NCBI GenBank assembly: GCA_947311515.1
Contig: CAMZLB010000017.1
Span: 1 to 40,975, forward strand
DNA: 40,975 nucleotides
Direction of reading: 5' to 3'
DNA from: Candidatus Moraniibacteriota bacterium
GTDB lineage: Bacteria > Patescibacteriota > Minisyncoccia > Moranbacterales > GCA-2747515
Part shown: piece after piece, positions 23,810 to 40,711 of the stretch
How positions within the stretch are numbered: the first letter of the stretch is position 1
Layout: every line of letters starts with the position of its first letter
Position numbers and translations under genes: made by a program
The notes under the pieces: generated by a model
The model's database searches: none
The model's input: only the letters and a program-made list of their open reading frames with translations
Told to the model about the DNA's origin: nothing

Positions 23810-24691
23810 ATGACAATACAGGAGGAAAAAATAATTGTTGTTATTGTTCATTATAATAGCAATGGTCAACTTGTGGACTGTGTAAGAAGCATCATAGAGT
23901 CAGGATTTGAAGATATTATAGTGGTTGATAATAATTCTATAGACGGAACTTTGGAGAAATGTCGGGAGAAATATAAAGAGTTGTTTTATATTGAAAATTT
24001 TAAAAATATAGGATTTGCACCCGCTGTAAATATAGGAGTTAAAAAGGCGATGAAAAGTAATGCTACTCATATTTTGCTTTGTAATCCAGATGCTCTAGTA
24101 GAAAATACATGTATTAAAAAGTTGATTAAAGAATCTAACAATAAAATAGGTATTTATTCTCCACTAATTTATAATAAAAAAGATGATAGTATTTGGTTTG
24201 CTGGAGGTTATATAAATTATAAGAAACAATTGGCAACTCATGAAACAGTAAAAGAACTACCAAGAGAATCATATTATTCAGAATATATATCTGGATGCGT
24301 TATGTTAGTAAATGTACAAGTATTTCAAAAAATTGGTTTTTTAGATGAACGATTTTTTTTGTATTATGAAGATGTAGATTTTTCTATAAGAGTGCAAAAA
24401 GCAGGCTTTTGTACAAAACTTGTTCCAAGTGCAATAGCTTTTCATGATGAGCAATCAAAAGAATTAGGGGATAAAAAAATTTATTTTTTGGTACTTGCAG
24501 GCCTTAAATTTTTTGAAATACATACACCTGCATCTTGGAGGCTTCAGTGGTTTATGTATACATTAATTCGATTTAGTGTTAGTTTTATAAAATATAAATT
24601 AAAAAAACCACATTCAAAAGCTGTTTGGTGTGCATTTAAAGATTATGTCTACAGAGGTAAGAAACATACAAATTTCATTTCTAATAGTTAA
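23810..24691 (+). CDS. Family 2 glycosyltransferase (rhamnosyltransferase-like)
   Basis: The 293-aa protein has a GT-A fold: VVIVHYNSNGQL (10-21), the nucleotide-binding VVDNNSIDGT (~37-46), LLCNPDALVEN (the NPD motif replacing DxD) and the acceptor-side FFLYYEDVDFSIRVQKAG. These match WbbL/rhamnosyltransferase-like GT2 enzymes. It transfers a sugar from a nucleotide donor to a growing lipid-linked glycan in the cytosol; the sugar cannot be told. A TATAAT (23797-23802) ends 7 nt before the ATG, so a leaderless transcript is possible. Confidence 0.9.
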   Translation: MTIQEEKIIVVIVHYNSNGQLVDCVRSIIESGFEDIIVVDNNSIDGTLEKCREKYKELFYIENFKNIGFAPAVNIGVKKAMKSNATHILLCNPDALVENTCIKKLIKESNNKIGIYSPLIYNKKDDSIWFAGGYINYKKQLATHETVKELPRESYYSEYISGCVMLVNVQVFQKIGFLDERFFLYYEDVDFSIRVQKAGFCTKLVPSAIAFHDEQSKELGDKKIYFLVLAGLKFFEIHTPASWRLQWFMYTLIRFSVSFIKYKLKKPHSKAVWCAFKDYVYRGKKHTNFISNS

Positions 24692-25427
24692 TTATAATAG
24701 CTCAAAAGTTTTAATTGAGTGTATTAAAAATTTAAAAGATATATCAAAAAAATATTCCTATGAAATAATTATAGGAAATAATGATAAAGAATTTCTTAAA
24801 TTAAAGGAGGAGAAAGTAAAAATGATTAATAATTCAAAAAATCTAGGATTTGGAAAAGCAAATAATATAATAGCAGGTATTGCAGTTGGTCAAGTACTGA
24901 TATTTGTAAATCCAGACACGTACTCGTTTAATATTAATTTTTGCGATATTATAAAGTCACTAAAGAATGGAGTGGGTATTGTTGCACCAGCTATCTTTAA
25001 TGATAAAAATGAAATTGAAAAATGGTCATATGGAAAAACTATTTCTCCCTTAACTATAATTATAAATAATATATTTAAATTTAAAAATTTTTGTTATAAT
25101 AATAAAAACTGTTCTGTTGGCTGGGTTAGTGGCGCAGTATTATGTATTAAACGACAGTTATTTATTGAAATTGGAGGTTTTGATAACAGATTTTTTCTGT
25201 ATTATGAAGATGTAGATTTGTGTAAACGAGTCTTGGACTCAGGGTTAAAAATAATTAAAAATGATAAATTTAGCGTTACGCATATTGGAGGTTCTAGTAT
25301 GAGAGAGAAAAGTATGCAAAAAAAATATTATTATGATAGCCAGTATCTTTATATTAATAAACATTATGGAAAAATATCTGCAAATATATTGAGACTTCTA
25401 TGTAAAATAAAATATGGTATATGGTAG
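24645..25427 (+). CDS. Family 2 glycosyltransferase
   Basis: The protein has 260 aa from the ATG at 24645; an upstream GTG at 24630 is less likely because the fold begins at ISFLIVNYNSS. The GT-A elements are shortened relative to the previous gene: GNNDKEF in the donor site, LIFVNPDTYSF as the NPD motif, and FFLYYEDVDLCKRVLDSG near the catalytic base. It overlaps the previous gene by 47 bp, implying coupling. It probably adds the next sugar in the same glycan. The two enzymes are related and may be an old duplication. Confidence 0.88.
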   Translation: MSTEVRNIQISFLIVNYNSSKVLIECIKNLKDISKKYSYEIIIGNNDKEFLKLKEEKVKMINNSKNLGFGKANNIIAGIAVGQVLIFVNPDTYSFNINFCDIIKSLKNGVGIVAPAIFNDKNEIEKWSYGKTISPLTIIINNIFKFKNFCYNNKNCSVGWVSGAVLCIKRQLFIEIGGFDNRFFLYYEDVDLCKRVLDSGLKIIKNDKFSVTHIGGSSMREKSMQKKYYYDSQYLYINKHYGKISANILRLLCKIKYGIW

Positions 25428-26692
25428 AGAAATTTATTATAATTATATATATAATTCTTGGTTTTTCTTTTGCACTGTCCCCCATAGAGGGTTTTGATGT
25501 TCAAATTATGAGAGTTTTAATTCCTTTGCTCTTTTTGCTTTGGATTGTAATAGGTATTATAAATAAAAAAGTATATGTAGCCAAAGGATTTATAAGCTTT
25601 TTTTTTGTGGGAATTTTTTTATGGAGTACAGTTTCTTTATTTTACAGTGATGTTATTTCATGGACTGCTAGAAAATTGATATTTTTTTACTCTCTTGCTC
25701 CACTTCTATATGTTTTAGTTGATATATTTAAGTCAAATAAAAAATCAGTAGATAGAGTGATTGTTGCGTTAGTTTATGGAGGCTCGCTGATTTCTTTAGT
25801 TGGAATAATACAGTTTTTTTTACAATTTCTAATTTCTCGTGATAGCGTGGCTTTAATATGGCTAAAGCTTATGCCATTTTTTTTAGGAGGAACTTTTTCA
25901 GAAAGTGTTGCTACATTTAATAGCTGGTATGTGCACGTTGCAGGAATTGATATTTTTAGGGCGATTGCTTTTTTTCCTGATCCTCATGTTTTTTCATATT
26001 ATACTGGATTAATATTACCATTCGCAGTATTTTTATATTTAGAAACAAAAGAAAAAAAATGGATATTATCTACTGGACTATTACTTCTTGTTGATATATT
26101 AACTTTTTCTAGAGGTGGTGAAATTGCATTAATAGTTGGCTTTTTTGTCTTTTTATGGATATCGAAACCAATTACTAATATTAGGTTTAAGCACTTGACT
26201 ATTGTTAGTGTAATTATAATTGTTTTTTTCTTTATAACTATAGGAAATGCTGTTTCTGAAAGATTTTCATCGTCCTTTAGTTCATCGGATAAATCAGTAA
26301 CTCATAGGTTTGTACTTTGGAAAGAAGCTATAGGAGTATTTAAAAAAAAGCCTATCTCTGGTGTTGGACTTGGGGCATATCCTCATGAAGTAGATTTCTC
26401 AGCTGATTATCGTAAACCAATATATGTACACAACACTTATTTAGATATATTGGTTGAAGTAGGTATGATAGGCTTATTTATGTGGATGGGATTATTTTTG
26501 AGCTCTTTTTATATTTTTTGGTTAAATCGTAAATCGGTTTATGCAAGAGCTGGAATAGTAAGTCTGAGTATTCTTATGACACACAGTTTATTTGATACAC
26601 CAATTTTTTCAATTCATGTATTTTTGGTTGTGATTTTAATTTTTTCAGTTGCTTCTTATTATGAACAAGATGAAATTAATATTTCAAAATAA
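25421..26692 (+). CDS. O-antigen ligase/polymerase-like membrane protein (Wzy/WaaL family)
   Basis: The 423-aa protein has about ten or more membrane helices and a large extracellular loop. The Wzy_C signature is clear: SGVGLGAYP, then VHNTYLDILVEVGMIGLFMW, with the His used in polymer transfer. It overlaps the preceding gene by 7 bp. It should polymerise the repeat unit or ligate the glycan to an acceptor at the outer membrane face; which of the two cannot be decided. Confidence 0.85.
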   Translation: MVEKFIIIIYIILGFSFALSPIEGFDVQIMRVLIPLLFLLWIVIGIINKKVYVAKGFISFFFVGIFLWSTVSLFYSDVISWTARKLIFFYSLAPLLYVLVDIFKSNKKSVDRVIVALVYGGSLISLVGIIQFFLQFLISRDSVALIWLKLMPFFLGGTFSESVATFNSWYVHVAGIDIFRAIAFFPDPHVFSYYTGLILPFAVFLYLETKEKKWILSTGLLLLVDILTFSRGGEIALIVGFFVFLWISKPITNIRFKHLTIVSVIIIVFFFITIGNAVSERFSSSFSSSDKSVTHRFVLWKEAIGVFKKKPISGVGLGAYPHEVDFSADYRKPIYVHNTYLDILVEVGMIGLFMWMGLFLSSFYIFWLNRKSVYARAGIVSLSILMTHSLFDTPIFSIHVFLVVILIFSVASYYEQDEINISK

Positions 26693-27872
26693 TACGATAT
26701 CTATTTTGATTATATATCTCTGTGCTATTTCATTATCATTAGAATTTATTAGATTGGACCTTGGATATTTCACGGTTAGTATTACCTCAATTGCAATGTT
26801 AATATTTAGTGGTATATTAAGTTTTTTACATGGTAGTACAGTTGTTAAAAATATTAATCAAAATAAAATATCAATATCACTATTAATTTTGTTTGATAGT
26901 ATAGTTTTAATAAGTTGTTTTGTAAATCTTAATACACATGCAATCGGTATTATGATTGAATGGTTTATTCTTCCCATTGTTTCATCAGTTATTGTAGTTT
27001 CTACTTTAAGTAAAAAAGAATTTTCTAAAAATATATGGAATGCTATTATACTATATACAGTTAGCATATCAGTTATTTCTTTAGGAAGTGTCTTGAATTT
27101 AGATTTTACGTATGATGGAAGACTGAAATCAATGTGGCATTCACCTAATTATTTAGCAATGATTATTAGTCCAATGATTCCACTTGTGTTGTGGGGTATA
27201 ATCAGTTTAAATGACCGCATGTCACGTTACAGTGGATTATTAATACTTTTAGCTATCTTTGGAATTTTATTTGCTACACAGTCTATTTTTGGCGTTGTTA
27301 GTGTTTTTGTTGGGTTGTTTTTATTAGCCCCTTTTATTATTTCAATTAAACACATAAAAGAACATAAAAAAATATTTATAGTTATAAGTATTATTCTAAC
27401 ATTAGGATTATCTCTCTTATTGGTTAGTAGAGGAAGTGTGTTTATAACAAATATTGAAAGATCATCACTAATGTCTAGAGTTAATATTTGGAATGTCACG
27501 AAAGATTTAATTGGCAGTGAGTCACTAAAAGGTTACGGTTTAGACACATTTCAAGATAAATATTTAGAAAAACAAGAATTTTATGAGCCTTATCTAGAGT
27601 GGGCAGTACCTTCTGCACATAATACTTATCTAATGCTATGGTTTTCAGGTGGCTTTTTTATGTTATTTGTATTTTTAGTTATTTATTTTTTTGCAATTTT
27701 CAATCTTATAAAAAGATATTTGCTACTAAGAGATAAAAAACTTATATTAATTTTAGTGTCTATTTTAATTATTGGTATACATGGACTCGTAGACACAACA
27801 ATATTTGGCATAACTATTTCTCATATATTTTGGTTATTGGTGATTGGTGCAGTCATATCTAAAAATAAATAA
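26661..27872 (+). CDS. Second O-antigen ligase/polymerase-like membrane protein
   Basis: The protein has 403 aa from ATG 26661; an upstream TTG at 26649 and an ATG at 26670 are alternatives. It has about ten membrane helices. The signature KGYGLDTF followed by SAHNTYLMLWFSGGFFML places it in the same Wzy_C family as its neighbour, but the two are diverged. It overlaps that gene by 32 bp. Having two suggests one polymerase and one ligase. A terminator follows immediately. Confidence 0.82.
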   Translation: MNKMKLIFQNNTISILIIYLCAISLSLEFIRLDLGYFTVSITSIAMLIFSGILSFLHGSTVVKNINQNKISISLLILFDSIVLISCFVNLNTHAIGIMIEWFILPIVSSVIVVSTLSKKEFSKNIWNAIILYTVSISVISLGSVLNLDFTYDGRLKSMWHSPNYLAMIISPMIPLVLWGIISLNDRMSRYSGLLILLAIFGILFATQSIFGVVSVFVGLFLLAPFIISIKHIKEHKKIFIVISIILTLGLSLLLVSRGSVFITNIERSSLMSRVNIWNVTKDLIGSESLKGYGLDTFQDKYLEKQEFYEPYLEWAVPSAHNTYLMLWFSGGFFMLFVFLVIYFFAIFNLIKRYLLLRDKKLILILVSILIIGIHGLVDTTIFGITISHIFWLLVIGAVISKNK

Positions 27873-27897
27873 AACTTCTCTTAAATGGAGAAGTTTT
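27871..27897 (+). terminator. Terminator of the glycan locus
   Basis: AAAACTTCTC (27871-27880), TTAAATG loop, GAGAAGTTTT (27888-27897): a perfect 10-bp stem with T-rich 3' arm, at the stop codon of the last gene. Confidence 0.85.
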
Positions 27898-27991
27898 ACA
27901 ATTATATTATTTTAGATAGTTTAATAAATTCTAATCAAATATTATTATAATCCATAACTATAAAAGTATAATAAATTCCTTTGTCTAGTAT

Positions 27992-29077
27992 CTATAACTT
28001 GTTTTGATCTAAACACATTTTTTGATAGGCTTGAACTTTTTTTACATAATCTCGTGTCTCCTTAAAGCCTTCATTATCTATGTGACATTGCCAAACAGGT
28101 AATCCAGGACAGTCACTAGACTTTGCAAAAGGACCTTTTTTTCCAGATTTACTCTTTGTTCCTGCTCCAGCATTATAAGAAGCAATTAAGTCATCATTTC
28201 CAGTATCGTAGTGATATGGACCAACTGTTATCATAGTTCCTGATTGCATATTGGATGAGCCTATAGACGCATGGTCAAAAGTATAATTACGTAGTATTCT
28301 TCCATTGCTATTCATGAATCTTGCAGCTATCTCAATACTTTTTTTAGGATTACTTTTTAAAGCTGCACAGGTTCCTAGTCCATATTTAGATCCAGTACTT
28401 GGTAAAAATTGCATCATTCCACATGCTCCAACACCACTTTCAGCATTCGGGTTGCATCCTGACTCTTGAGTTCCTATTGCATAAAGTAAACATCCAAAAT
28501 TTTTATCTCCACTACTAGCGCTATTAAAGTCACTCTTGTAGTTATCACAGCCAGTAGGTAGGTTTACTGGAGCTGGATCAGATTCAGTTTGAATTCCTCC
28601 CCCATCTTCTCCAATTTTTTCTCTTCCGTTAGCAGATGAAAAATAACCATCAATATTACTAGGAGCTTGTCCTAGTAATCTAGAAGGACCCAATGGATTA
28701 AAAATCATAATATCAGGATTGATTGTTAAAAATAAAATTCCAACAAAGAATGATACAATAAGTCCAATTAAAGCATTCCAGATAATTTCCTTTGCATGAC
28801 CAGATCTTGATTGGTTACCGGCACTTATAATATAAAGGTAACCACCAATAGTAATCATAACTAGGGAAGCTATTGCGACTGAAGCTATGGCAAATTTAAA
28901 AATTCCTAAGAGATATTTTGAAAATGTAACATTTTCACTTCCAGCATTTCCAATAAATGGGATAGATTCCATGAGTTTATATTTTTCAACCGCAAACGTT
29001 GTTGATGGAATCATTAGTATTAGAAGTAATAATAGGATAGGTAAAATTAGTTTTTTTATATTTATTTTATAAGTCAT
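27992..29077 (-). CDS. VirB2-like pilin domain fused to a lytic transglycosylase
   Basis: The protein has 361 aa. A signal peptide (~1-29) is followed by a T4SS-pilin-like domain (~50-122) with two membrane helices around ITIGGYLYIISAGNQS and AKEIIWNALIGLIV. A 50-aa linker follows, then an SLT domain (~177-360). Its catalytic Glu205 lies in GTQESGC; GACGMMQFLPST and LIASYNAGAGT are the usual companion motifs. It should cleave glycan strands of peptidoglycan while held in the membrane by the pilin part, like a VirB1 made membrane-bound. It starts 4 bp after the DUF2272 fusion gene and ends the minus-strand run. Part of its DNA (28710-28916) is nearly identical to the neighbour. Confidence 0.85.
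   Translation of the reverse strand: MTYKINIKKLILPILLLLLILMIPSTTFAVEKYKLMESIPFIGNAGSENVTFSKYLLGIFKFAIASVAIASLVMITIGGYLYIISAGNQSRSGHAKEIIWNALIGLIVSFFVGILFLTINPDIMIFNPLGPSRLLGQAPSNIDGYFSSANGREKIGEDGGGIQTESDPAPVNLPTGCDNYKSDFNSASSGDKNFGCLLYAIGTQESGCNPNAESGVGACGMMQFLPSTGSKYGLGTCAALKSNPKKSIEIAARFMNSNGRILRNYTFDHASIGSSNMQSGTMITVGPYHYDTGNDDLIASYNAGAGTKSKSGKKGPFAKSSDCPGLPVWQCHIDNEGFKETRDYVKKVQAYQKMCLDQNKL
28710..28916. repeat. 207-bp near-identical repeat, copy 1 (in SLT fusion gene)
   Basis: It matches 29686-29892 at a constant offset of 976 bp with about three mismatches in 207, all silent. It encodes the two membrane helices of the pilin domain. Flanking sequence is only moderately similar. Confidence 0.9.
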
Positions 29078-29081
29078 ATGT

Positions 29082-30035
29082 TTATTTTGATAATATTGCT
29101 ATTAATTTACTGCTTTGTAACTTTCCATCTTTTAGTATAAAAGTTTTTAGTTTAACTGAATTACCTACATTTCCACCAATTGTTGTAACTTTATTTCCAT
29201 GTATACTATGAACTATATCACAGTGACTTTTGTAATTAGTATTAGAATTAAACTGTCCGCCAGATCTACTTCCACAAATTAAATCTCCAACTTGAGGCGT
29301 GTATTCAGAAGGTTTATGAAATGTCCATCCATTTCTATTATGATAAGCATCATTTATATATTTCCAGTGTCCTGCTGCACTAAGACCTGTAACATGAGAT
29401 ATAAAAGCAGCGCTCCAAGGGACTTTTTTGCAATTTTGTAATGGCAATCCAGCACTAGCCCAGTAAGCTGTAAGTCTTGCTTTCATTGCAGGATCACATT
29501 CTTTTTTAGCACCTCTTCCCCAAAATATGTATTCATACATTGCTTTGTTAGCCATGGCATTTCCAGATAAACCTAAGGGTGTACCTACTGGCGATGTTTT
29601 TCCACCGATTGAATTTGAGATAGATTCCCCACTTCCTATGCTATGTCCCATTATTTTAGTTGCGATTTTTGGAGAAAAGCTTAATATATCAGGATTGATT
29701 GTTAAAAATAAAATCCCAACAAAGAATGATACAATAAGTCCAATTAAAGCATTCCAGATAATTTCCTTTGCATGACCAGATCTTGATTGGTTACCGGCAC
29801 TTATAATATAGAGGTAACCACCAATAGTAATCATAACTAGGGAAGCTATTGCGACTGAAGCTATGGCAAATTTAAAAATTCCTAAAAGATATGTGGAAAA
29901 GTTAATATCCGATGAGCCTTGGGTTCCTATAAAGGGTATACTTTCAAGTAATTTATATTTTTCATTTACTGCAAGTGTTATGGAGGGCATTAGTATTATT
30001 AAAGATATAGATAAGAATACAATTGTTTTTTTCAT
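29082..30035 (-). CDS. VirB2-like pilin domain fused to a DUF2272-type peptidase
   Basis: The protein has 317 aa. The signal peptide (~1-22) and T4SS-pilin-like domain (~47-118) match those of the SLT fusion, with the membrane part identical in amino acids. The C-terminal domain (~165-317) resembles DUF2272 of the NlpC/P60-CHAP superfamily: VPWSAAFISHV (205-215), GDLICGS (250-256), HCDIVHSI (271-278) and TTIGGNVGNSV (284-294). Serine stands where CHAP enzymes carry the nucleophile Cys, so catalysis needs testing. It would act on peptide crosslinks or bind wall. It lies 5 bp after the propeller gene and 4 bp before the SLT fusion, so the two hydrolases are made together. Confidence 0.75.
   Translation of the reverse strand: MKKTIVFLSISLIILMPSITLAVNEKYKLLESIPFIGTQGSSDINFSTYLLGIFKFAIASVAIASLVMITIGGYLYIISAGNQSRSGHAKEIIWNALIGLIVSFFVGILFLTINPDILSFSPKIATKIMGHSIGSGESISNSIGGKTSPVGTPLGLSGNAMANKAMYEYIFWGRGAKKECDPAMKARLTAYWASAGLPLQNCKKVPWSAAFISHVTGLSAAGHWKYINDAYHNRNGWTFHKPSEYTPQVGDLICGSRSGGQFNSNTNYKSHCDIVHSIHGNKVTTIGGNVGNSVKLKTFILKDGKLQSSKLIAILSK
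29686..29892. repeat. 207-bp near-identical repeat, copy 2 (in DUF2272 fusion gene)
   Basis: Partner of 28710-28916; differences are at three positions near 29715, 29810 and 29886. Same coding role and frame. Confidence 0.9.
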
Positions 30036-30040
30036 AATAG

Positions 30041-31192
30041 TTATTTTGTGAGTTTTAATCTATATAATAAATTATTTATATTGTTTATAAAAAATAGAGA
30101 ATCTTCATTTTCTGAAATAAATAAATTTTTAGCATCTATGTTCTCTGTTAAATTTTCTAAATCTATTAGTCTAGTTTTTTCACCGTTTATATCTACTTTC
30201 CAAAAAGTATCTTTAGTTTTAAATTTATTATTAATGTAATCATTTGGCATAATACTATTTTCTGGAATATTGGTGGGGTGTGCATAGTATATGGTTTTAC
30301 TGTCTTTACTCCAGACAGATTTTTGAATTAATGTAGGAGCTAGTAAATTTTTGTACTCACCTCCATTATTGTTCATAATGCCAAGTGAAATATTAGAGGC
30401 ACCTTTACTTTTTGAAGAGCCTACCAGTATATATTTTCCATTTGGAGAATATAAATAATCAGCTCCATACAATCCCTCATGAATTAAAGTAGGTTTATTA
30501 GGAGAAATTATATTCACAGTTTGTAACTTTGATTGAATAAAGCTATCTCCAGCTTGCCAATAAGCCATATTAGATGAATTTGGAACTTGCATAAATGAAG
30601 CATGCCTAAATGGAACATTTATTATTTCCTTCCAATTTTCACCATTTTGTTTTGAAATATTAATGGATCTCGAGTCGGTCTTATTGTCGAAATATTTGTA
30701 TAAAATCTTATTATTTATATTACTCCAACTAGCATAATCTATTGATGAGTTAAGTTTGTGAGTTATACTTGTTTTTGAAGAATAAGTATATAAACCATCA
30801 ATAGCATATATTATGAGATCATTATTATCAGGTGACCAAATTACTTTTTGTAAATTGGGAATATTTAATTTAAATAACTGTTTTTGATTAGTTCCTCTCG
30901 GGGTCATGGTCATAACCGTGCCATTTTCTGTAACATATCGAATTAGATTTGCAGAAATATCCATATCTGCAGAAAGAACACCTATGTCTGAAATGTTAAA
31001 TAAAGAAGGTCGTAAATTTGTAGAGGCACTATTTAATTCAGTAGTGTCATTTTTTTTGTTATCTGCATCAGAAATATCTGAATGTGATTGATTTTTATCA
31101 GGTAATTTTGTTTTTATGATAATCGTATAGGTTCCCCATGAAATCAATACTATCAATAACAAAATTAGTGAGATAATAAATATCTTTTTCAT
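30041..31192 (-). CDS. Membrane-anchored TolB-like beta-propeller protein
   Basis: The 383-aa protein has one N-terminal membrane helix (~4-26) and a polar linker. The rest is a beta-propeller with repeated blades of the TolB/WD40-like kind: KVIWSPDNNDLIIYA, YASWSNINNKILYK, YLYSPNGKYILVG and SVWSKDSKTIYYA. It should face the outside and serve as a binding scaffold; no catalytic residues are evident. It precedes the two pilin-hydrolase genes by 5 bp and is preceded by a terminator, so it starts a three-gene unit. Confidence 0.75.
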   Translation of the reverse strand: MKKIFIISLILLLIVLISWGTYTIIIKTKLPDKNQSHSDISDADNKKNDTTELNSASTNLRPSLFNISDIGVLSADMDISANLIRYVTENGTVMTMTPRGTNQKQLFKLNIPNLQKVIWSPDNNDLIIYAIDGLYTYSSKTSITHKLNSSIDYASWSNINNKILYKYFDNKTDSRSINISKQNGENWKEIINVPFRHASFMQVPNSSNMAYWQAGDSFIQSKLQTVNIISPNKPTLIHEGLYGADYLYSPNGKYILVGSSKSKGASNISLGIMNNNGGEYKNLLAPTLIQKSVWSKDSKTIYYAHPTNIPENSIMPNDYINNKFKTKDTFWKVDINGEKTRLIDLENLTENIDAKNLFISENEDSLFFINNINNLLYRLKLTK

Positions 31193-31323: not shown

Positions 31324-32640
31324 TTAAAAAGTTAATCTTGAATCAGTAGGAACATAAAATGCAGGTGCTCCATCTGTAAATTCAAACTCAGGCCATTTAG
31401 CTAATACATCAGCTTTATAAGTAGTATAAAGTTGCATTTTAGTTTTTGTATTGTATAAACGATATATAGGAGTTGTACCATCATCTACAAGACTTGCATA
31501 AAATATTGGTTCATCGTCTGTAAATTCAAAATCACCCCATTTATTTAGAACATGATCTCTATCTGCTTCTCCTCTAGTGTACAGATGTGTACCTGTTTTT
31601 CTATTGTATAACCTGTAAATTGGTGTTTTACCATTATCAGTTACAGAAGCATAAAAAGAAGGAAAATTATCTGTAAATTCAAACTCAGACCATTTTGTTA
31701 AAATTTTTGTTCGTTCTTCTGCGCCTCTTACGTATAAATGAGTACCTGTCTGAGTGTTATATAATCGATATATTGGTAAATAGATATCATCTATATCTGT
31801 TACATAAACAAACACAATTTGACTATCTTCTAATAACCCGTCAGACGCAGTAACGCGGACTTCATAGATATTGTCCAGGTTAGAATCTTTAGGATTTTCA
31901 AAATCTTTAACTTCTAAAAAAAATAATTCACCAGTTACAGTATTTATCTCAAATTGAGCCATATCAGGTCCACCAGATAGACTAAAAATTATAGTATCAC
32001 CATTTGAATCCTCAGCTTCTATTGTACTAACTATAGTTTGGTTTTCATCAACATTTACGGAAGCAGTTGTGCAAGCCCCACAAGAATATCGTAATTTTCC
32101 TACGGAGTGTCCAGTTATGATAGGAGTACTAGTTGCAACTACTGTACCAGAACTGCCTTCATTATTTACTTCATTACTTATGCTTAGGCTATTTCCATTT
32201 TCATCTGATAGCTCAGTAGTTGTCAGATTTAAGTTCACAGAACCTTCAGCTAAACTGTGAACATGTATCGTAACTAGATGAACGTCATTGCCATTGGCGT
32301 GATTTGAGGTTGCTATACCTGCAAATCTATAATGTCCAGCTGCAAGATCATTTGCATTTGACATTATTGTATAATTAGTTGTATCAGCTCCATTATCTAA
32401 CCCATTATTTCCAAGAGCTGTATCTACTGTTACTTTTGTAGGATCGAAATCAAAATACATATTAAAAGCACCAATATTTTTACCTCCTGTATCCATGTGA
32501 ACTTTTATGTCAAAACCTGTATCTACAGTTGAATTGAAATTTGTGGGTGTAATCCACGTATCACCCTCTGCTGCGTAAGACACACTTGTCAGGGTAGTCA
32601 TTACTAAAAAGGCAATTATTATTATAAATATTTTTTTCAT
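31324..32640 (-). CDS. Secreted cohesin/cadherin/DUF5648 repeat surface protein
   Basis: The 438-aa protein has a signal peptide (~1-24), then a cohesin-like domain (~28-170; GAFNMYFDFDPTKVTV), a cadherin-like domain (~195-285; INTVTGELFF, YEVRVTASDG), and three tandem units of ~51 aa at 289-333, 340-384 and 391-430. Each unit begins IYRLYN and contains a THLY core and EFEFTD, as in DUF5648 repeats. Cohesin domains bind dockerins and cadherin repeats bind calcium; together they suggest an adhesin or matrix protein. No sorting signal or C-terminal membrane helix is present. It lies inside the secretion cluster but is separately terminated and may have its own promoter. Confidence 0.75.
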   Translation of the reverse strand: MKKIFIIIIAFLVMTTLTSVSYAAEGDTWITPTNFNSTVDTGFDIKVHMDTGGKNIGAFNMYFDFDPTKVTVDTALGNNGLDNGADTTNYTIMSNANDLAAGHYRFAGIATSNHANGNDVHLVTIHVHSLAEGSVNLNLTTTELSDENGNSLSISNEVNNEGSSGTVVATSTPIITGHSVGKLRYSCGACTTASVNVDENQTIVSTIEAEDSNGDTIIFSLSGGPDMAQFEINTVTGELFFLEVKDFENPKDSNLDNIYEVRVTASDGLLEDSQIVFVYVTDIDDIYLPIYRLYNTQTGTHLYVRGAEERTKILTKWSEFEFTDNFPSFYASVTDNGKTPIYRLYNRKTGTHLYTRGEADRDHVLNKWGDFEFTDDEPIFYASLVDDGTTPIYRLYNTKTKMQLYTTYKADVLAKWPEFEFTDGAPAFYVPTDSRLTF

Positions 32641-33378: not shown

Positions 33379-33810
33379 TCAAGGGTTGTTTTTTAGGACT
33401 CCTGTTTTTTCATAACCAGTACCTTTCATTTTTTCTGGAAATAAGGGCTTAAATGTCATAATATCTGAGTTTATTGTATAAAATAGTACACCAACAAACA
33501 TTACAACAACTAAGCCTAAAATAGCATTCCAAATAATTTCCTTTGCTCGTCCAGATTGTGCTTGATTTCCAGCACTAATTATATAATAGTATCCTCCAAT
33601 AGTAATCATGAGTAGAGCTACTATTGCTATTGAGGCAATTGCAAATTTAAATACTCCACTTAGATATTTTGGTAATTGGGTAGTTTCATCAGAGATAAAA
33701 GGAAGTGGTTCTATTAGTTTATATTTAAGACTAGTATTAGCAAAAACTAAAGTTGGTATTGATAGATTTGCACAAATTATAATTATTAAGATAAATAGAC
33801 TTTTTTTCAT
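33379..33810 (-). CDS. VirB2-like type IV secretion pilin
   Basis: The 143-aa protein has a signal peptide (~1-24), a short extracellular start (YKLIEPLPFI), and two membrane helices (LMITIGGYYYIISAGNQ and AKEIIWNAILGLVV). It is the stand-alone version of the domain found in both hydrolase fusions, with clear similarity but more divergence. The pattern matches the T4SS pilin family common in CPR genomes (VirB2/TrbC-like). It lies 36 bp after the 950-aa gene and ends in TGA. It is likely the fibre or channel subunit of the apparatus. Confidence 0.8.
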   Translation of the reverse strand: MKKSLFILIIIICANLSIPTLVFANTSLKYKLIEPLPFISDETTQLPKYLSGVFKFAIASIAIVALLMITIGGYYYIISAGNQAQSGRAKEIIWNAILGLVVVMFVGVLFYTINSDIMTFKPLFPEKMKGTGYEKTGVLKNNP

Positions 33811-33846: not shown

Positions 33847-36699
33847 TTAATCTGATTTTTTACTTAAATTAAGAATAACAGATGGGATAAATAACACAAT
33901 TCCAATCATAAAAATCATTTTAAGTAGAAACATTATGTAGGCAGGAGAATTTTGAGAGATAGTAGCGAATATCTTATTTGATGGAGTTGCAGCAATAGCT
34001 GCTGCATCAGTCATTTCTACTTTTACAGTCTCATCAAAAAATGTTCTACCTGAACTATCAGCTGTAATACCATAAATATTTTTTAAAGCTAGTCTTTTTC
34101 TGTTGGTTATATCATAGAATCCATTAGTCTTGACTCTTACATCTCTTTCTGAAGAAAAATTAACTGATGTAGCATCAATAAGATTTTGTTGCGCACTATT
34201 TATATACCATTCCAAACTAACTTCCGTTCCTACGCTTCCAGCTAAAAAACTAGGAATAAATGTAGATGTTACTGTAATATCACTTCCTCTAGGTGCAGTA
34301 AATAAATTATGACTAACCTCTGTTACTGCGCCTCCCTTTAAGTCCTTTTTAAGACCTCTTTCAAGTTCAGCTGCTGAACCACCAGCTACTAAAAGTAACT
34401 CAGGTGTAACTTTACTCAACACAGCATTGAATTCTATAGTTGCAGCAATTTCAGCACCATGATGAGAAGCCTCAACTGTACCTAATTCACTTAAGGTAGC
34501 TGTTATTTCATATGTGTCCACGTCTTTTGTTATAGGTATATATATAACAGAATGATTATCAGGTGTGCATTCAGGAGAAATAAATTCATTGCAGAACACT
34601 GATTTTCCATTTACTTTCCATAAAGTATTTTTTGAAGTCATGGCTATACTAGGTAAAGCAACTCTTATAACTTGATTTACTAAAACTTCACAATTAAGAT
34701 GTTCATTTGCTCCTGTGCATATATCTAATTGTTTAGTATATCCAGTGGCAAGAGCATCTGTGGGTTGTGCAACAGATAAAGCTAGAGCATCTTGTCCAGA
34801 ATTAGTTATTTGAAATAAATAACTAGTTTGTCCAAATCTAGATACATCACCCCTAGCAGAAGGGGCATCTGCACGTAAAGTTATTCTTACCCATCCTCTG
34901 TCCTTAGTTTGATCTTTGGTTAAATCGGTAGCTAGAGCAAACCAATTATTTGGGAAATTCTTAGACATCTTCAAAGAATCTGCTCCGATACCTTCAGAAT
35001 TCAATATCCCAAATTGATTTTTTAAAAATGCTTTATCCGTGATGAGTTTGAAACCTGAAGTTTTTGAATGGCTGTACTCAACAAACCACTCGAAGTTTGT
35101 GTTATGTCTTTTAGTGGGCACATCCATATCGGAACCCGTATGAGTCAAGACACTATCAAATGTTATGAACTCAGCTGGGTTTTTTGGAATTAACTTATTG
35201 CCGGGACCTATAATTTTCACATCTAAATCTAGTTCTTCTTTTTGTCCGCCTGGAGAGCTGAAATTGTCATCATTATCAATACAAGCATTTAGGTCATCAC
35301 GATCCATATTAGCTGTAAATATCTGTATACCTTTTCCACGAACAATATCTATATATGAAGCTGTATTGATAGGTTTACAACCTCCTTGCATAAATGCAAA
35401 TATTGTTTGCATCGATCTATCATCATGTCTTGTTGGATTTCCAGTTCCCTCAATTACAACACCTATTTCGTCGCCTTCATGATATTCCCAAATAAAAGTA
35501 GACATTCCCTTGCCTACAATAACCTCCTCATCTAACATGTTTGGTACAGTATTATCATTTTCAGGATCTGTTCCCCAAAATCGTTCTTCTGCAGATTTAA
35601 AATTACCATCTCCTGATTCAAAGGGTATTCCAAAAGCAATTTCATTTTTAGGGAAAGGAAATAGGTGAATTTTGTTTTCATCACACGCATTAGCTAATCC
35701 AGCATCATCGCCAAATATCATGTCTGCATCACAAGTCATGGCAGGTACTATAGTTCCTTCAGTTACTAAATCATTACATGACTTAGGCTCTTCTTCACCT
35801 AGTAATGGGCAAGTGCCTTCATTGTACTTATAATTATTTAACATACAAAAAGGAAGTCCACCGTTAGGACATGTAGCGAAAGATTTTCCAAGAATTGGAG
35901 GAGAACATATAGGAGATGAAGATTCTGCACAAGTATCATAAAGTTTCAGAGCTGCTGCATCAACAGGGTCGGGACATGTTAATCTATTATTATCCATGCA
36001 AGTAGCTGAAAAACCATTAGGACAGCTCACTCCTGAATTATCGCCACCACCAGCCATTAATTCAAAAATCTCGCCCTTTTCTCTCTCATATAGATAGCAG
36101 TATTTTTTACCATTTTGTGCGTTATTTCCTCCTACGGTAGCCTTATATCCGTCATTATCAGTATCTGTTGGATATTCAGTTGTAGTTAATATAAAATTTC
36201 CATCCCCACCATTAAAAGTACTATCATAACGCATAGGATTAAAATGATATTTAATCATTTCTCTGGTGGCCATAATCTTCCAAAATTCAGGATCATCTTC
36301 TATGCCACCACCTACTTGAGTTCCTAGCTGATCAGCTAAGGGTAATGTTCCAATATCATTGAATCCTCGCAGTTTAGATTTCTTTTTGTTTCTAATATAC
36401 CAAGTATAATAAGCTTCTTTAGGATTTACTATTCCCTTTGGTGTTGCAGTGGCTTTGTAATGAGTTTCATCAATTTTTGTATAATTAATAATTACTTCAG
36501 GAACCAATGTTTTTTGAGAACTTTGACCGATGCCAAGATCATTAGGATCTATTAATAAGTCATGTTCTAAAAACTTTTTAATCTCTTTGCGCACATTTAC
36601 TTTAGGAGAAGACAAAAAACCAGCCTTAATAGAATAAAAAGGTATGAATAAAAGTGTTATTTGAACTACTGCAATTAAGCTAAAAAAATATTTTTTCAT
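33847..36699 (-). CDS. Large Cys-rich exoprotein with C-terminal membrane anchor
   Basis: The 950-aa protein is not one I recognise. It has a signal peptide (~1-26), an N-terminal domain, and a cysteine-rich stretch (~200-340, about 15 Cys, with CPNGFSATC and CPNGGLPFC spaced alike). A long beta-rich part follows (~345-900) with Ig-like features such as VEWFVEYSHS and SLEWYINS. A single membrane helix lies at the extreme C-terminus (MFLLKMIFMIGIVLFIPSVI). It should display a large extracellular domain anchored at both ends of maturation. It overlaps the upstream membrane-protein gene by 4 bp (ATGA), so both are coupled, and precedes the pilin. It is a likely structural part of the secretion apparatus. 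Confidence 0.7.
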   Translation of the reverse strand: MKKYFFSLIAVVQITLLFIPFYSIKAGFLSSPKVNVRKEIKKFLEHDLLIDPNDLGIGQSSQKTLVPEVIINYTKIDETHYKATATPKGIVNPKEAYYTWYIRNKKKSKLRGFNDIGTLPLADQLGTQVGGGIEDDPEFWKIMATREMIKYHFNPMRYDSTFNGGDGNFILTTTEYPTDTDNDGYKATVGGNNAQNGKKYCYLYEREKGEIFELMAGGGDNSGVSCPNGFSATCMDNNRLTCPDPVDAAALKLYDTCAESSSPICSPPILGKSFATCPNGGLPFCMLNNYKYNEGTCPLLGEEEPKSCNDLVTEGTIVPAMTCDADMIFGDDAGLANACDENKIHLFPFPKNEIAFGIPFESGDGNFKSAEERFWGTDPENDNTVPNMLDEEVIVGKGMSTFIWEYHEGDEIGVVIEGTGNPTRHDDRSMQTIFAFMQGGCKPINTASYIDIVRGKGIQIFTANMDRDDLNACIDNDDNFSSPGGQKEELDLDVKIIGPGNKLIPKNPAEFITFDSVLTHTGSDMDVPTKRHNTNFEWFVEYSHSKTSGFKLITDKAFLKNQFGILNSEGIGADSLKMSKNFPNNWFALATDLTKDQTKDRGWVRITLRADAPSARGDVSRFGQTSYLFQITNSGQDALALSVAQPTDALATGYTKQLDICTGANEHLNCEVLVNQVIRVALPSIAMTSKNTLWKVNGKSVFCNEFISPECTPDNHSVIYIPITKDVDTYEITATLSELGTVEASHHGAEIAATIEFNAVLSKVTPELLLVAGGSAAELERGLKKDLKGGAVTEVSHNLFTAPRGSDITVTSTFIPSFLAGSVGTEVSLEWYINSAQQNLIDATSVNFSSERDVRVKTNGFYDITNRKRLALKNIYGITADSSGRTFFDETVKVEMTDAAAIAATPSNKIFATISQNSPAYIMFLLKMIFMIGIVLFIPSVILNLSKKSD

Positions 36700-37325
36700 A
36701 TAATGAATTTAATTATTAAGGTATCAAAAATTAGAAACGTAAAAAATAACATTGTGGAAAGTACAATAAAAGTATCTTTTTTGAATTTTCTAAGAATAGG
36801 TGCTGAGGCTATAAATATTAATCCAAGGAACCATTTATCCTCACTAGTAAACAAAAGTAGAGTAGTTAACACATAAGCAATAATCCAATTATTTTTATAA
36901 CTAGATAGAATTTTTTTGATAAATAAATAACCTATAAAAATAGAACTTAATATTTCAAGCATGAAAATAACAAGTTCACTTAACAAAAAAGTTCCTATAG
37001 AGTTTTTAAATATAATAATAGACGCTTTATAGTCAAAAGGAATGAAATTGAAAAAAAATGCAACAATGCTAATTGTAACTCCTATTATAACACCTAGTAC
37101 CAATCCAAGTATGATTTGTGAAAAAATGCCTTGTTGTATACTTTTATCACTTAGGATTTTATGAAGTATTATTTTTAAATAGAGTATTGGTATTACAAAT
37201 ATAAACACAACAAATCCAATAAGTTGTTCGAAGATGTTGTTAGTTGGAAAGAAAGAATACAATGCTATACAAACAATTGCAATAAATATCGAAAGTATAA
37301 TCTCTAAATTATTTTTATTTTTCAT
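36696..37325 (-). CDS. Polytopic membrane protein of unknown function
   Basis: The 209-aa protein has about six membrane helices, short loops and basic connecting segments. No catalytic motif is visible. Its stop overlaps the start of the 950-aa gene by 4 bp, so it belongs to the secretion cluster. A channel or assembly role such as VirB6 or VirB3 can be imagined, but nothing in the sequence shows it. Upstream (37393-37403) lies a small GC-rich inverted repeat, CGACA-C-TGTCG. Confidence 0.65.
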   Translation of the reverse strand: MKNKNNLEIILSIFIAIVCIALYSFFPTNNIFEQLIGFVVFIFVIPILYLKIILHKILSDKSIQQGIFSQIILGLVLGVIIGVTISIVAFFFNFIPFDYKASIIIFKNSIGTFLLSELVIFMLEILSSIFIGYLFIKKILSSYKNNWIIAYVLTTLLLFTSEDKWFLGLIFIASAPILRKFKKDTFIVLSTMLFFTFLIFDTLIIKFII

Positions 37326-37439: not shown

Positions 37440-38150
37440 TTAAAACTTTATATTATACTTTTTAAGAGTAGAATGTCCTCTAAGAGATCTTTTTTTGAGG
37501 AGTCGTTGTAATGCAAAAACACTCAAAGCACTCCAAGGTATTAAGTTAACTAAAGGTATTAAGCTTAATAGAGGAATAATAATCCAAGTAAGTCTTCGCA
37601 CTAAAAATCTTTGCATAAATGTGGAGTATCTCCATATGAAATATGATATATACATCGAAATAGAAAGTTGAAGAAATCCTACTAATATAGATAATCCAAA
37701 ACCTATAGCTTGTATTCCAGTATTAGATATCCATAGTATAACTCCTAAGAATGGTATAGTCTTTAATAAATTAGTCATTAAATCAATGCTAGTAGTTAAC
37801 ATTGATGTTAATTGTGAGTACAAAGATAATATTAGACTAGCTAAACCAAATGCATAGACTAATATAAAGGGAGCTCTTTCAAAATGTTTTATAGCTTTTA
37901 AGGATTCCTGTACTTCTTTATTTTGTTTTGTTGTTAGGGGTTTTACTCTAGTTCTGAGAGTATGTTGTTGCTGTTGTCTTAAAAAAAGTTGGTTCCTTGA
38001 AGACCGTTCTCTCGAAACTTTGGATATTTTTCGCACAGGTCTAATTTTTTTAGTACCAGATAATTTTGGGTAACTTAAATTTTCAGTAGTTAAACTGCTC
38101 AATTTCTTTTTTATGTAGTTTTTTCTTGCAGATTTATTATTTTCTGACAC
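37440..38150 (-). CDS. Basic-tailed membrane protein of the secretion cluster
   Basis: The 236-aa protein starts at a GTG (38148-38150). Residues 1-85 are very basic and rich in Lys, Arg, Ser and Gln (e.g. LFLRQQQQHTLRTRV), so cytoplasmic. Three or four membrane helices follow (~90-215), then another basic tail (LLKKRSLRGHSTLKKYN). I do not recognise the family. It lies 55 bp after the VirB4 ATPase gene, which fits a membrane subunit that docks the ATPase, a role inferred only from position. Confidence 0.65.
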   Translation of the reverse strand: MSENNKSARKNYIKKKLSSLTTENLSYPKLSGTKKIRPVRKISKVSRERSSRNQLFLRQQQQHTLRTRVKPLTTKQNKEVQESLKAIKHFERAPFILVYAFGLASLILSLYSQLTSMLTTSIDLMTNLLKTIPFLGVILWISNTGIQAIGFGLSILVGFLQLSISMYISYFIWRYSTFMQRFLVRRLTWIIIPLLSLIPLVNLIPWSALSVFALQRLLKKRSLRGHSTLKKYNIKF

Positions 38151-38205: not shown

Positions 38206-40017
38206 TTAGCTCATTCTATTAGCTTGCTCAAGTTCTTCTTTTGCATTAGCAATTTCTAATAACTGTCTTGGGTCGGACGTTATTATTTGATCTTCTCCGT
38301 AAGAAGCTATTATTTTTATAGCAGCATGTTTCGTTCCAGCGAAAAAAATGCCTTCACCAACATTACTTTCTAATAGTAGGAATTTTTCATGATTGGTTAG
38401 ATAAAATGTTTCCGACAAAATATCAATCGAAGAAGGAGATTGTTTTAGTAATAATTGCATTGAAGAGTTTGTTACTATAGGTTTTCCATATCTATTTGTT
38501 AAAAAATCGGAAATATCTTGTGTAATAGTGGTTAGTCCTGTGTAGTATTTTCTACATCTTTTTGCAATACCATAAAAAAAGCTTGCAGCATCTTCATTTT
38601 GCATCATGACCCAAGCTTCATCAATAATAACAAGTCTTTTTGTTAGGTTTGTGCGCATTTCATTCCATATGAACTGTAAAATGAGATACATGGCAATAGG
38701 TCGAAGCTCATCTTCTAAATCTCGCACATTGAATACTACTAGTTGATTATGAACTTGAATATTTGTATAATTATTCAAAAAGCCAGAAAAAATACCTTCC
38801 GTATATTTTTGTAGTCTCATTGCCAATGATTCAGAGCCATCCATATTATGCAACACTTCATGCAAGTCATTTAAAGTTGGGTAGTCAGAGTGTGTTTTTT
38901 TACTAAAGTCACTTGTTTCTGTAATATCGCGAATGGAATAAGTTTCTCTTATTGCATTTTCTAGAACTGTATCTTCTTCAGCGGTAACTGAGCCAAGCAT
39001 TATGTGAAATAAGCCAATAAGTCCTGCTACAGTATTTCTGAAGGCATCTTCCATTCTATCGTTTTTTGAAATTCGTGGAATTTCAAATGGATTTATATGA
39101 GCGTCAGAACCCAATGAAATATTTACAAAGGTACCGCTGACAGACTGACAAAGATGTTCATATTCACTTTCAGGATCGATTACTATAATATTAGTTCCAA
39201 ACATCATAGATCTAAGTATTTCAAGTTTTACAAAATAACTTTTTCCAGAACCTGATTTTGCAAATATAACCATATTTGCATTTTCCATGTTAAATCTATC
39301 AAATAATACTAAACTATTATTATGTCTATTTATTCCATACAAAAGTCCTTCATTTGAGGATAAATCTGCACTAACAAAAGGAAACATTGTTGATAGAGGT
39401 GCTGTATTTAGATTAGTTCCTGCATTTAGTCTATCTTCGGCTAAAGGTATAGTGGACATAAAGCCTTGTTCCATTCTAAGTATGGATGTTTTAGTGTATA
39501 CTAACTGAGATTCTAATATAGTAGTAACCTCATTTGTATATTTATGCAATTGTTTTTTATTGTCAGCATAAAATGTTAAATATAGACCAAATCTAAAGAA
39601 TCGTTCAGTTCCCATCTGTAACTTATCTCGTAAATCTTCTACATTATCCATGGCTGTCTCCAATAAAGGATCTCTAATTTTACCACTTTCTGCTTCCAAA
39701 TTCATACGTGACTGAATATGAGTTGCAGATCTTTTAAGACTTCTAAGTACAGCTGTTGTTTCTGCTGGATGGATAAACATTGCAATATCCATAGGAAAAT
39801 CAATATTTACAATAGGAGAGAACCAATTATTATTTAAAAATCTAGGATAAGTAATGACATAAATAGTTTTCGCTAGTGAACCGCCCAGTTGAATATAAGA
39901 AGCTTCAATCTGTACAGCACTAGGAGCAATTAAGTCTCTGACAGTTGAAATTCCTTGATTGAAGAATTTTTCTTCAGATTTAATACTTACATTTTTTTTC
40001 TTTTTCTTAAATAGCAT
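38206..40017 (-). CDS. virB4: VirB4-type secretion ATPase (main part)
   Basis: The 603-aa protein has a VirB4/TraC N-terminal half and a RecA-like ATPase. The Walker A motif is AKSGSGKS (253-260), followed by IIVIDPESEYEHLC, as in TraG/VirB4/DUF87 proteins. The Walker B motif is RLVIIDEAWVMMQ, followed by the RKYYTGLTTITQDISDF segment. It powers assembly of, or transport through, the type IV secretion apparatus at the inner face of the membrane. The protein is shorter than classical VirB4 (~800 aa) because its first domain is encoded by the separate gene at 40034. The two are 16 bp apart. Confidence 0.92.
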   Translation of the reverse strand: MLFKKKKKNVSIKSEEKFFNQGISTVRDLIAPSAVQIEASYIQLGGSLAKTIYVITYPRFLNNNWFSPIVNIDFPMDIAMFIHPAETTAVLRSLKRSATHIQSRMNLEAESGKIRDPLLETAMDNVEDLRDKLQMGTERFFRFGLYLTFYADNKKQLHKYTNEVTTILESQLVYTKTSILRMEQGFMSTIPLAEDRLNAGTNLNTAPLSTMFPFVSADLSSNEGLLYGINRHNNSLVLFDRFNMENANMVIFAKSGSGKSYFVKLEILRSMMFGTNIIVIDPESEYEHLCQSVSGTFVNISLGSDAHINPFEIPRISKNDRMEDAFRNTVAGLIGLFHIMLGSVTAEEDTVLENAIRETYSIRDITETSDFSKKTHSDYPTLNDLHEVLHNMDGSESLAMRLQKYTEGIFSGFLNNYTNIQVHNQLVVFNVRDLEDELRPIAMYLILQFIWNEMRTNLTKRLVIIDEAWVMMQNEDAASFFYGIAKRCRKYYTGLTTITQDISDFLTNRYGKPIVTNSSMQLLLKQSPSSIDILSETFYLTNHEKFLLLESNVGEGIFFAGTKHAAIKIIASYGEDQIITSDPRQLLEIANAKEELEQANRMS

Positions 40018-40033
40018 AGTTTATTTGATGAAT

Positions 40034-40711
40034 TTATATTCTACTTATCTCTGTCTTGTCTAAATCCTTGAGTGCTTTTTTTACAAAGGCTGATGGATTA
40101 TAGGAATTGTAAAATAATTCTATAAGTTCTTCAGTATTTAGAGCTGTGAAGTGCAATCCTGTACCACCTAAGGCAGCTGCTACATGATCAACGCGTTGCC
40201 AAAGTTGGTTTTTGTGAGTTTCATAAAGTTCTTGTCTTTTTGAATTGCTACCACCTCCAAAGGCTGCGATAATTTTATCTAATATTCCTCCGTTTGATTT
40301 TTCTATAGGTGCAAAAGGTACTACTATATAGAAAAATTTACTCATTATATTTATTCTATCAGTCAAACTCTCTATAAATGACTTATATTCAAGTGTCTGA
40401 AGTCTTAGTAATTCATTGTGTTGTGTTTTTGCAGATCTACTAACTTTATTGATATATGGAGCTATATTTAATTTTCTAGAACTTATGATAATCTGAATAG
40501 GAAAGTCTAATGAGTTTAAAAAGTTTTGATATGCCATAATTATAGCATCCTGTTCATCAGAGGATTTTAGGTCGAAATTTATAGATGATACTAGTAAAAC
40601 ACTACGTAAATTTCCATTTTTTAAACGTACAACACCATCTTCTAAGGATTTTATATTAACAAATCTTGTTGTACTAGAATTAGAAACTTTATTAGTTGAT
40701 AAGAATTCCAC
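40034..40711 (-). CDS. VirB4 N-terminal (TraC-like) domain protein
   Basis: The 225-aa protein corresponds to the N-terminal domain of VirB4/TraC proteins. Conserved segments are IKSLEDGVVRLKNGNLRSVL (~20-39), SSINFDLKSSDEQDAII and FPIQIIISSRKLNIAPYI. In CPR genomes this domain is commonly a separate gene directly before the ATPase, as here. It starts at GTG (40709-40711); no ATG is available in frame before it. It is the first gene of the cluster in this window and probably docks the ATPase to the channel. Confidence 0.8.
   Translation of the reverse strand: MEFLSTNKVSNSSTTRFVNIKSLEDGVVRLKNGNLRSVLLVSSINFDLKSSDEQDAIIMAYQNFLNSLDFPIQIIISSRKLNIAPYINKVSRSAKTQHNELLRLQTLEYKSFIESLTDRINIMSKFFYIVVPFAPIEKSNGGILDKIIAAFGGGSNSKRQELYETHKNQLWQRVDHVAAALGGTGLHFTALNTEELIELFYNSYNPSAFVKKALKDLDKTEISRI

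Follow-up and report, generated by a model that had tools for sequence, protein, structure and literature searches.

In the Moranbacteria genome analysed here, the only VirB4 type IV secretion system (T4SS) gene cluster is closed by two adjacent genes, both coding for a signal peptide, a T4SS-pilin-type two-helix module and then an enzyme domain, which in fusion 1 is a GH23/SLT lytic transglycosylase and in fusion 2 a DUF2272 domain. We consider it reasonably probable (about 60%) that these fusions are pilin-like subunits dedicated to the T4SS and bearing the wall cutters of the machine, so that the job of VirB1 would be built into VirB2-like proteins.

Organization of the T4SS gene cluster

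The window, that is, the entire 40,975-nt contig analysed, belongs to a genome of 1.2 Mb (96% complete, 71 contigs). Ten minus-strand genes form one run from 40711 down to 27992, with the fusion genes last. The run opens with a TrsD/VirB4-N-terminal-like protein (40034..40711; NF041427 E 1e-5 and NF045975 E 1.6e-10, both below cut-off) and the VirB4 ATPase (38206..40017; NCBIfam conju_CD1110, 358 bits for a cut-off of 325 bits), which is the sole PF19044 match in the genome. Two membrane proteins follow, one of 236 aa flanked by VirB4 and the second protein (37440..38150), the other polytopic, of 209 aa and a conserved cluster neighbour (36696..37325). Next come another conserved T4SS-cluster neighbour, a secreted protein of 950 aa that has a TM helix at its C-terminus (33847..36699), and a stand-alone T4SS pilin of 143 aa, which is the module without a passenger (33379..33810; Pfam, AlphaFold2). 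A secreted protein with cohesin, cadherin and DUF5648 domains (31324-32640) separates this pilin from a 383-aa TolB/beta-propeller-like protein (30041..31192), extracytoplasmic with one N-terminal TM helix and recognised by inspection only, with no Pfam match. Fusion 2 (29082..30035) and fusion 1 (27992..29077) complete the run. The TolB-like gene and the two fusion genes are separated by gaps of 4-5 bp, and the fusions are encoded alongside VirB4, on the same strand and about 8-9 kb away from it. A bidirectional terminator-like hairpin with a 12-bp stem (27869..27899, minus strand) closes the gene run.

The dnaA gene (18719-20083) lies close to the cluster, and such proximity of T4SS genes to dnaA is described for other Patescibacteria in a 2025 T4SS survey (Quinonero-Coronel et al., PMC12102498). 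The cohesin/cadherin/DUF5648 protein, a possible surface adhesin, had no relatives in 100 fetched loci. Beyond the hairpin, two adjoining polytopic membrane proteins on the plus strand (25421-27872), O-antigen ligase/polymerase-like by inspection only, stand beside two glycosyltransferase-like genes.

Enzyme domains of the two fusions

The open reading frames, Pfam and BLASTP agree on the arrangement given in the initial annotation, namely two adjacent genes for a signal peptide, a two-helix module and an enzyme. Fusion 1, of 361 aa, is composed of the signal peptide, the module (residues 33-124 by module profile and AlphaFold2; 28706..28981, minus strand), a disordered linker and an SLT catalytic domain (PF01464, E 4.1e-15, residues 197-314; 28136..28489, minus strand). 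Its Glu205 (codon 28463-28465) aligns with the Glu478 of Slt70, and the best fold matches of its model are lytic transglycosylases (E ~1e-3). Fusion 1 therefore has the GH23/SLT domain with catalytic Glu of a VirB1-type hydrolase, but it is not a separate hydrolase, since it is joined to the pilin-type module.

Fusion 2, of 317 aa, has the same plan, with a module at residues 27-117 by module profile (29685..29957, minus strand), a linker and a papain-like/CHAP-like DUF2272 domain (PF10030, E 2.9e-17, 63.6 bits against a cut-off of 27, residues 186-299; 29136..29480, minus strand) that also gives a weak CHAP match (E 2.1e-4). It is the sole PF10030 match among 124 genomes of the order, and a PDB sequence search with the protein found no match. 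The Cys position of papain-like peptidases is occupied by Ser208 (motif PWSAAF, codon 29412-29414), with His271 (codon 29223-29225) as the candidate His, and a Ser at this position is a conserved trait of the DUF2272 family (PMC10318531). Thus, the description of this protein as a DUF2272-like peptidase holds for the domain, whereas the peptidase label is unproven, the catalytic Cys of an active cysteine peptidase or amidase being replaced by Ser208. The two domains are divided between two proteins, unlike the SLT and CHAP domains that bifunctional VirB1 proteins of monoderms carry on one chain.

The two-helix module is shared with the stand-alone pilin

In pairwise BLASTP comparisons, the 143-aa pilin is 57% identical to fusion 1 (E 2e-45) and 53% identical to fusion 2 (E 4e-42). 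The two fusions are 80% identical to each other over 115 aa, and the similarity ends where the enzymes start. Their modules are about 90% identical, in keeping with the proposal of the initial annotation that both proteins share the same VirB2-like domain, but the signal peptides, which it also described as the same, are only 56% identical across the first 25 aa. The stand-alone pilin passes the cut-off of the T4SS_pilin family PF18895 (30.3 bits vs 26.6), whereas fusion 1 (18.9 bits) and fusion 2 (19.6 bits) score below this 26.6-bit threshold. The module assignment consequently rests on pairwise homology, and we refer to pilin-type modules of the fusions and not to PF18895 members.

Both fusions display three hydrophobic segments, corresponding to a signal peptide and a two-TM hairpin, with termini that would be extracytoplasmic. 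In the AlphaFold2 model of fusion 1, two helices (52-84 and 89-119) are followed by a linker that is disordered at residues 128-164 and by an SLT domain mostly at pLDDT > 90. The same hairpin is predicted for the stand-alone pilin (helices 46-78 and 83-113), so that the outcome named as refuting in the initial annotation, shared helices unable to pack like those of the pilin, was not observed. A search for the VirB2 fold with the hairpin models of the pilin and the fusion returned no significant match, a two-helix hairpin being too generic for such a search to confirm this fold, and the module profile had no match in the PDB.

Recurrence of the fusions in the order and the phylum

Among the 124 sampled genomes of the order, VirB4 was found in 118 and a match to fusion 2 in 111, nearly all of these matches being confined to the pilin module. 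A module profile built from the fetched loci detected 144 ORFs, and in 104 of these the module is followed by 130 residues or more. Pfam recognised T4SS_pilin in 88 of these long ORFs (E up to 0.01) and SLT in 20, along with lysozyme-like families, C39, DUF2272 and a hedgehog-type domain as further passengers. The catalytic Glu is present in 22/22 SLT passengers, shifted by one column in two of them. Several large passenger clusters without a Pfam name exhibit an invariant H..D..H metal-ligand pattern; two of them weakly match Sonic hedgehog in the PDB (E ~0.01), and one also matches an L-Ala-D-Glu endopeptidase, with E no better than 0.5, while the cluster A3 found no match there. The motif and the weak Sonic hedgehog matches lead us to read these clusters as putative LAS/M15-type metallopeptidases, an assignment made at motif level.

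A wall-hydrolase fusion (SLT, lysozyme-like, LAS/M15-type, C39 or DUF2272) occurs in 75 of the 95 genomes with a module locus, a count that takes in the motif-assigned LAS passengers beside the recognised domains. Since the architecture recurs in 75 genomes, chance or an assembly artefact was rejected as its origin. In the family of the window, f1, four loci (L104, L106, L108 and L109, in G017, G016, G013 and G015, respectively) carry a conserved but unrecognised passenger of 270-290 aa, cluster 6. Outside the order, T4SS_pilin was detected in 53 of 55 long ORFs taken from high-scoring loci in 40 regions, with SLT, C39, NlpC/P60, M15, bacteriophage Amidase_5, GH18, cellulase, GDSL lipase and PKD passengers; this set was picked for long frames and indicates breadth, not frequency. 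The search for pilin domains followed by other catalytic domains, which the initial annotation had recommended, thus extends its observation well beyond a single genome. Elsewhere in the phylum, L238, L243 and L240 contribute long module-bearing ORFs to the set with GDSL-lipase, GH18/cellulase and PKD domains, which suggests that the module also carries domains other than wall hydrolases. The single Saccharibacteria locus examined (L289) has stand-alone pilins only.

Genomic context and the two pilin classes

Of the 75 genomes in which the module is joined to a hydrolase, 68 have the TolB-like gene within the fetched locus, 43 have the 950-aa protein and 28 have VirB4, the last at a distance of 4.7-9.1 kb. 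The TolB-like gene and the fusions share the same strand in 94/94 pairings. VirB4 usually lies away from the fusion locus in families f9 and f4. In f4 and f5, array-type pilins are found near VirB4, at 1.3-1.6 kb in G035, G038, G042, G047 and G048, for example. The slot modules and the array pilins form separate groups in a FastTree tree and, because the array pilins of f4 and f5 lie near VirB4, both classes are tied to one machine in different lineages. An array of T4SS pilins with no VirB4 close by was also seen in G000 (contig C25, ~24000-26600; L196), including a 208-aa ORF with two tandem pilin domains.

In family f11, the four loci inspected (L126, L127, L194 and L195) contain stand-alone slot-like pilins, with a VirD4/HerA-like ATPase of ~826 aa directly upstream of the pilin in three of them and a broken copy in L195. 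This arrangement differs from the VirB4 cluster, and f11 does not speak for a loss of fusions.

Glycan and peptide cutters occur in pairs

Exactly two recognised fusions occur in 15 genomes, and each of these combines one glycosidase with one peptidase. For an overall tally of 34 glycosidases and 59 peptidases, a mixed pair is expected at random with a frequency of 0.46, and all 15 with a probability of ~1e-5, which is a naive figure given that the genomes are related. Families f1, f4 and f10 all show this mixed pairing, using different classes of domain. In three f9 genomes (L092, L095 and L198), SLT is joined to an array-type pilin instead. As the only passenger on the slot module of this family is a LAS peptidase, the glycan cutter may be borne by the other class of pilin.

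The passengers change while the module remains uniform

When the passengers are mapped on a tree of the TolB-like gene, 63 genomes require at least 31 changes of the passenger set, and f9 requires at least 12; the tree is quick, with some forks open, and differences between loci cut at contig ends can inflate the 31. Such a very high turnover on a constant carrier could also be anticipated if the fusions were evolved pilins acting on the host, that is, minor or tip subunits of an extracellular pilus whose interchangeable passengers perforate or digest the host bacterium's wall. In favour of this scenario, the GH18, GDSL lipase, cellulase, PKD and Amidase_5 passengers outside the order exceed the needs of the cell's own wall, and a cultivated Patescibacterium depends for its epibiotic growth on a T4SS whose pilin array is essential (PMC10633639). 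On the other hand, the pairing of glycan and peptide cutters is equally expected from VirB1 work on the own wall, a filament containing the module is so far only a supposition, and the passengers would crowd a homopolymeric fibre. We regard a host-directed role as rather unlikely.

No other part of the fusion proteins is as well conserved as the module, which has near-invariant loop and helix positions. In many genomes with two fusions, the modules of the same genome are 91-100% identical, while those of relatives differ. We compared sets with the same two-gene arrangement, G043/G045/G046 and G032/G034. Third-position identity of the module between paralogues within a genome is 0.84-0.90 in G032, G034, G043 and G046 and 0.64 in G045, compared with 0.42-0.60 between orthologues across genomes; the LAS passengers of different genomes share 76-78% identity. 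Since third positions of paralogues are closer than those of orthologues, the module undergoes concerted evolution, most simply by gene conversion that would have homogenised its copies after speciation in at least two lineages. This fits with subunits obliged to co-assemble, but conversion between neighbouring genes can be neutral, and uniformity is not universal, as family f10 often retains two divergent modules (20-30% identical).

These data also bear on the possibility that the two helices are a generic membrane anchor that only tethers ordinary autolysins on the outer face of the membrane. The topology is suitable for tethering, the fold search gave nothing specific and the f9 locus is not next to VirB4. 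Nevertheless, anchors normally drift, whereas this module is strongly conserved and homogenised between paralogues, also occurs without a passenger, as a pilin in the same slot, and is recognised as T4SS_pilin in 88/104 fusions. Passenger turnover together with module uniformity hence disfavours a generic anchor, which we find improbable, and favours a subunit that is dedicated to the T4SS and takes the role of VirB1; the conserved place in the T4SS cluster likewise speaks for the specific module proposed initially. It is very improbable that the fusions are precursors cut after export into an assembling pilin and a released enzyme: the long linker of fusion 1 (residues 128-164, pLDDT < 50 in AlphaFold2) could accommodate such processing, but an unsystematic look at the linkers noticed no recurrent cleavage motif and the cluster has no obvious processing protease.

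A proposed model for pilin-borne wall cutters

According to the preferred reading, that of dedicated pilin-like subunits, each fusion protein would be exported by Sec, and its two-helix module would lie in the membrane so that the C-terminus faces outward. The module would then dock with the stand-alone pilin into the VirB4-driven apparatus, and the flexible linker would give the enzyme reach to the peptidoglycan. There, the lytic transglycosylase could cut glycan strands, and its partner, DUF2272 here and putative LAS metallopeptidases in relatives, could attack the peptide part, both together opening a passage through the wall for the apparatus. In this view, the carrier would stay uniform and the enzyme be replaced as needed. 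The module may enter a filament or a ring and the enzymes may be held at the tip or base of the apparatus, as the initial annotation proposed, and the wall that is cut may be that of the cell or of its host. Several points weigh against this model, namely the PF18895 scores below cut-off, the lack of a fold match, the f9 locus apart from VirB4, a DUF2272 domain devoid of the usual Cys, a LAS class based on motifs and weak profiles, the divergent modules of f10 and the cluster 6 passenger of f1.

If correct, the model offers an answer to the puzzle of Patescibacteria that have VirB2-like pilins yet mostly no recognisable VirB1: fused to a pilin-type module, with profiles scored separately, the VirB1 function can escape notice. 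It also connects, in molecular terms that can be tested, the T4SS on which a cultivated relative depends to grow as an epibiont with the cutting of the own or host wall; probably, these cells mount interchangeable wall cutters on a machine thought to contact hosts. The natural domain swaps are, in addition, a ready set for finding the module residues that matter in assembly.

Comparison with known systems

PF18895 was used, within the literature searched, only in PMC12102498. As far as the available sections of this survey go, it reports Patescibacteria pilins and pilin arrays, with VirB1 mostly missing, suggests that the pilus may not need VirB1, and makes no mention of pilin-hydrolase fusions. 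The searched literature as a whole, which leaves out most subscription journals and preprints, contains no description of them. The pilins of the survey have in common with those of the window the module family, the cluster type (VirB4, TrsD, pilin) and the dnaA vicinity; the window instead has pilin-hydrolase fusions.

Fusion 2 shares with DUF2272 proteins (PF10030) of the papain-like NlpC/P60-CHAP group both the domain and the Ser in place of Cys (PMC10318531), and differs from them in being joined to a pilin module. Fusion 1 has the catalytic fold and Glu of the GH23 lytic transglycosylases Slt70 and MltE but, unlike them, an N-terminal pilin-type module and a long linker.

In type VI secretion systems (T6SS), evolved VgrG, Hcp and PAAR proteins are structural effectors, in which a constant part of the machine carries swappable enzyme passengers. 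The likeness lies in the constant carrier and the swapped enzymes; the proteins and the machine are unrelated and the comparison is an analogy. Should the passengers act on hosts, the fusions would be a T4SS counterpart of these effector-tipped T6SS parts.

The VirB1-type proteins of monoderms (TraG of pIP501, PrgK and the CD419/TrsG profiles) also provide a glycan and a peptide cutter linked to VirB4 clusters. The initial annotation had VirB1-type hydrolases as normally separate soluble proteins, which is not always the case, as those of monoderm T4SSs are often larger two-domain SLT + CHAP proteins, according to the survey (PMC12102498). There, both activities reside on one chain; in the window they are divided between two chains, each on a pilin-type module and often replaced. 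The split SLT/DUF2272 pair thereby mirrors the SLT + CHAP make-up of monoderm VirB1 proteins.
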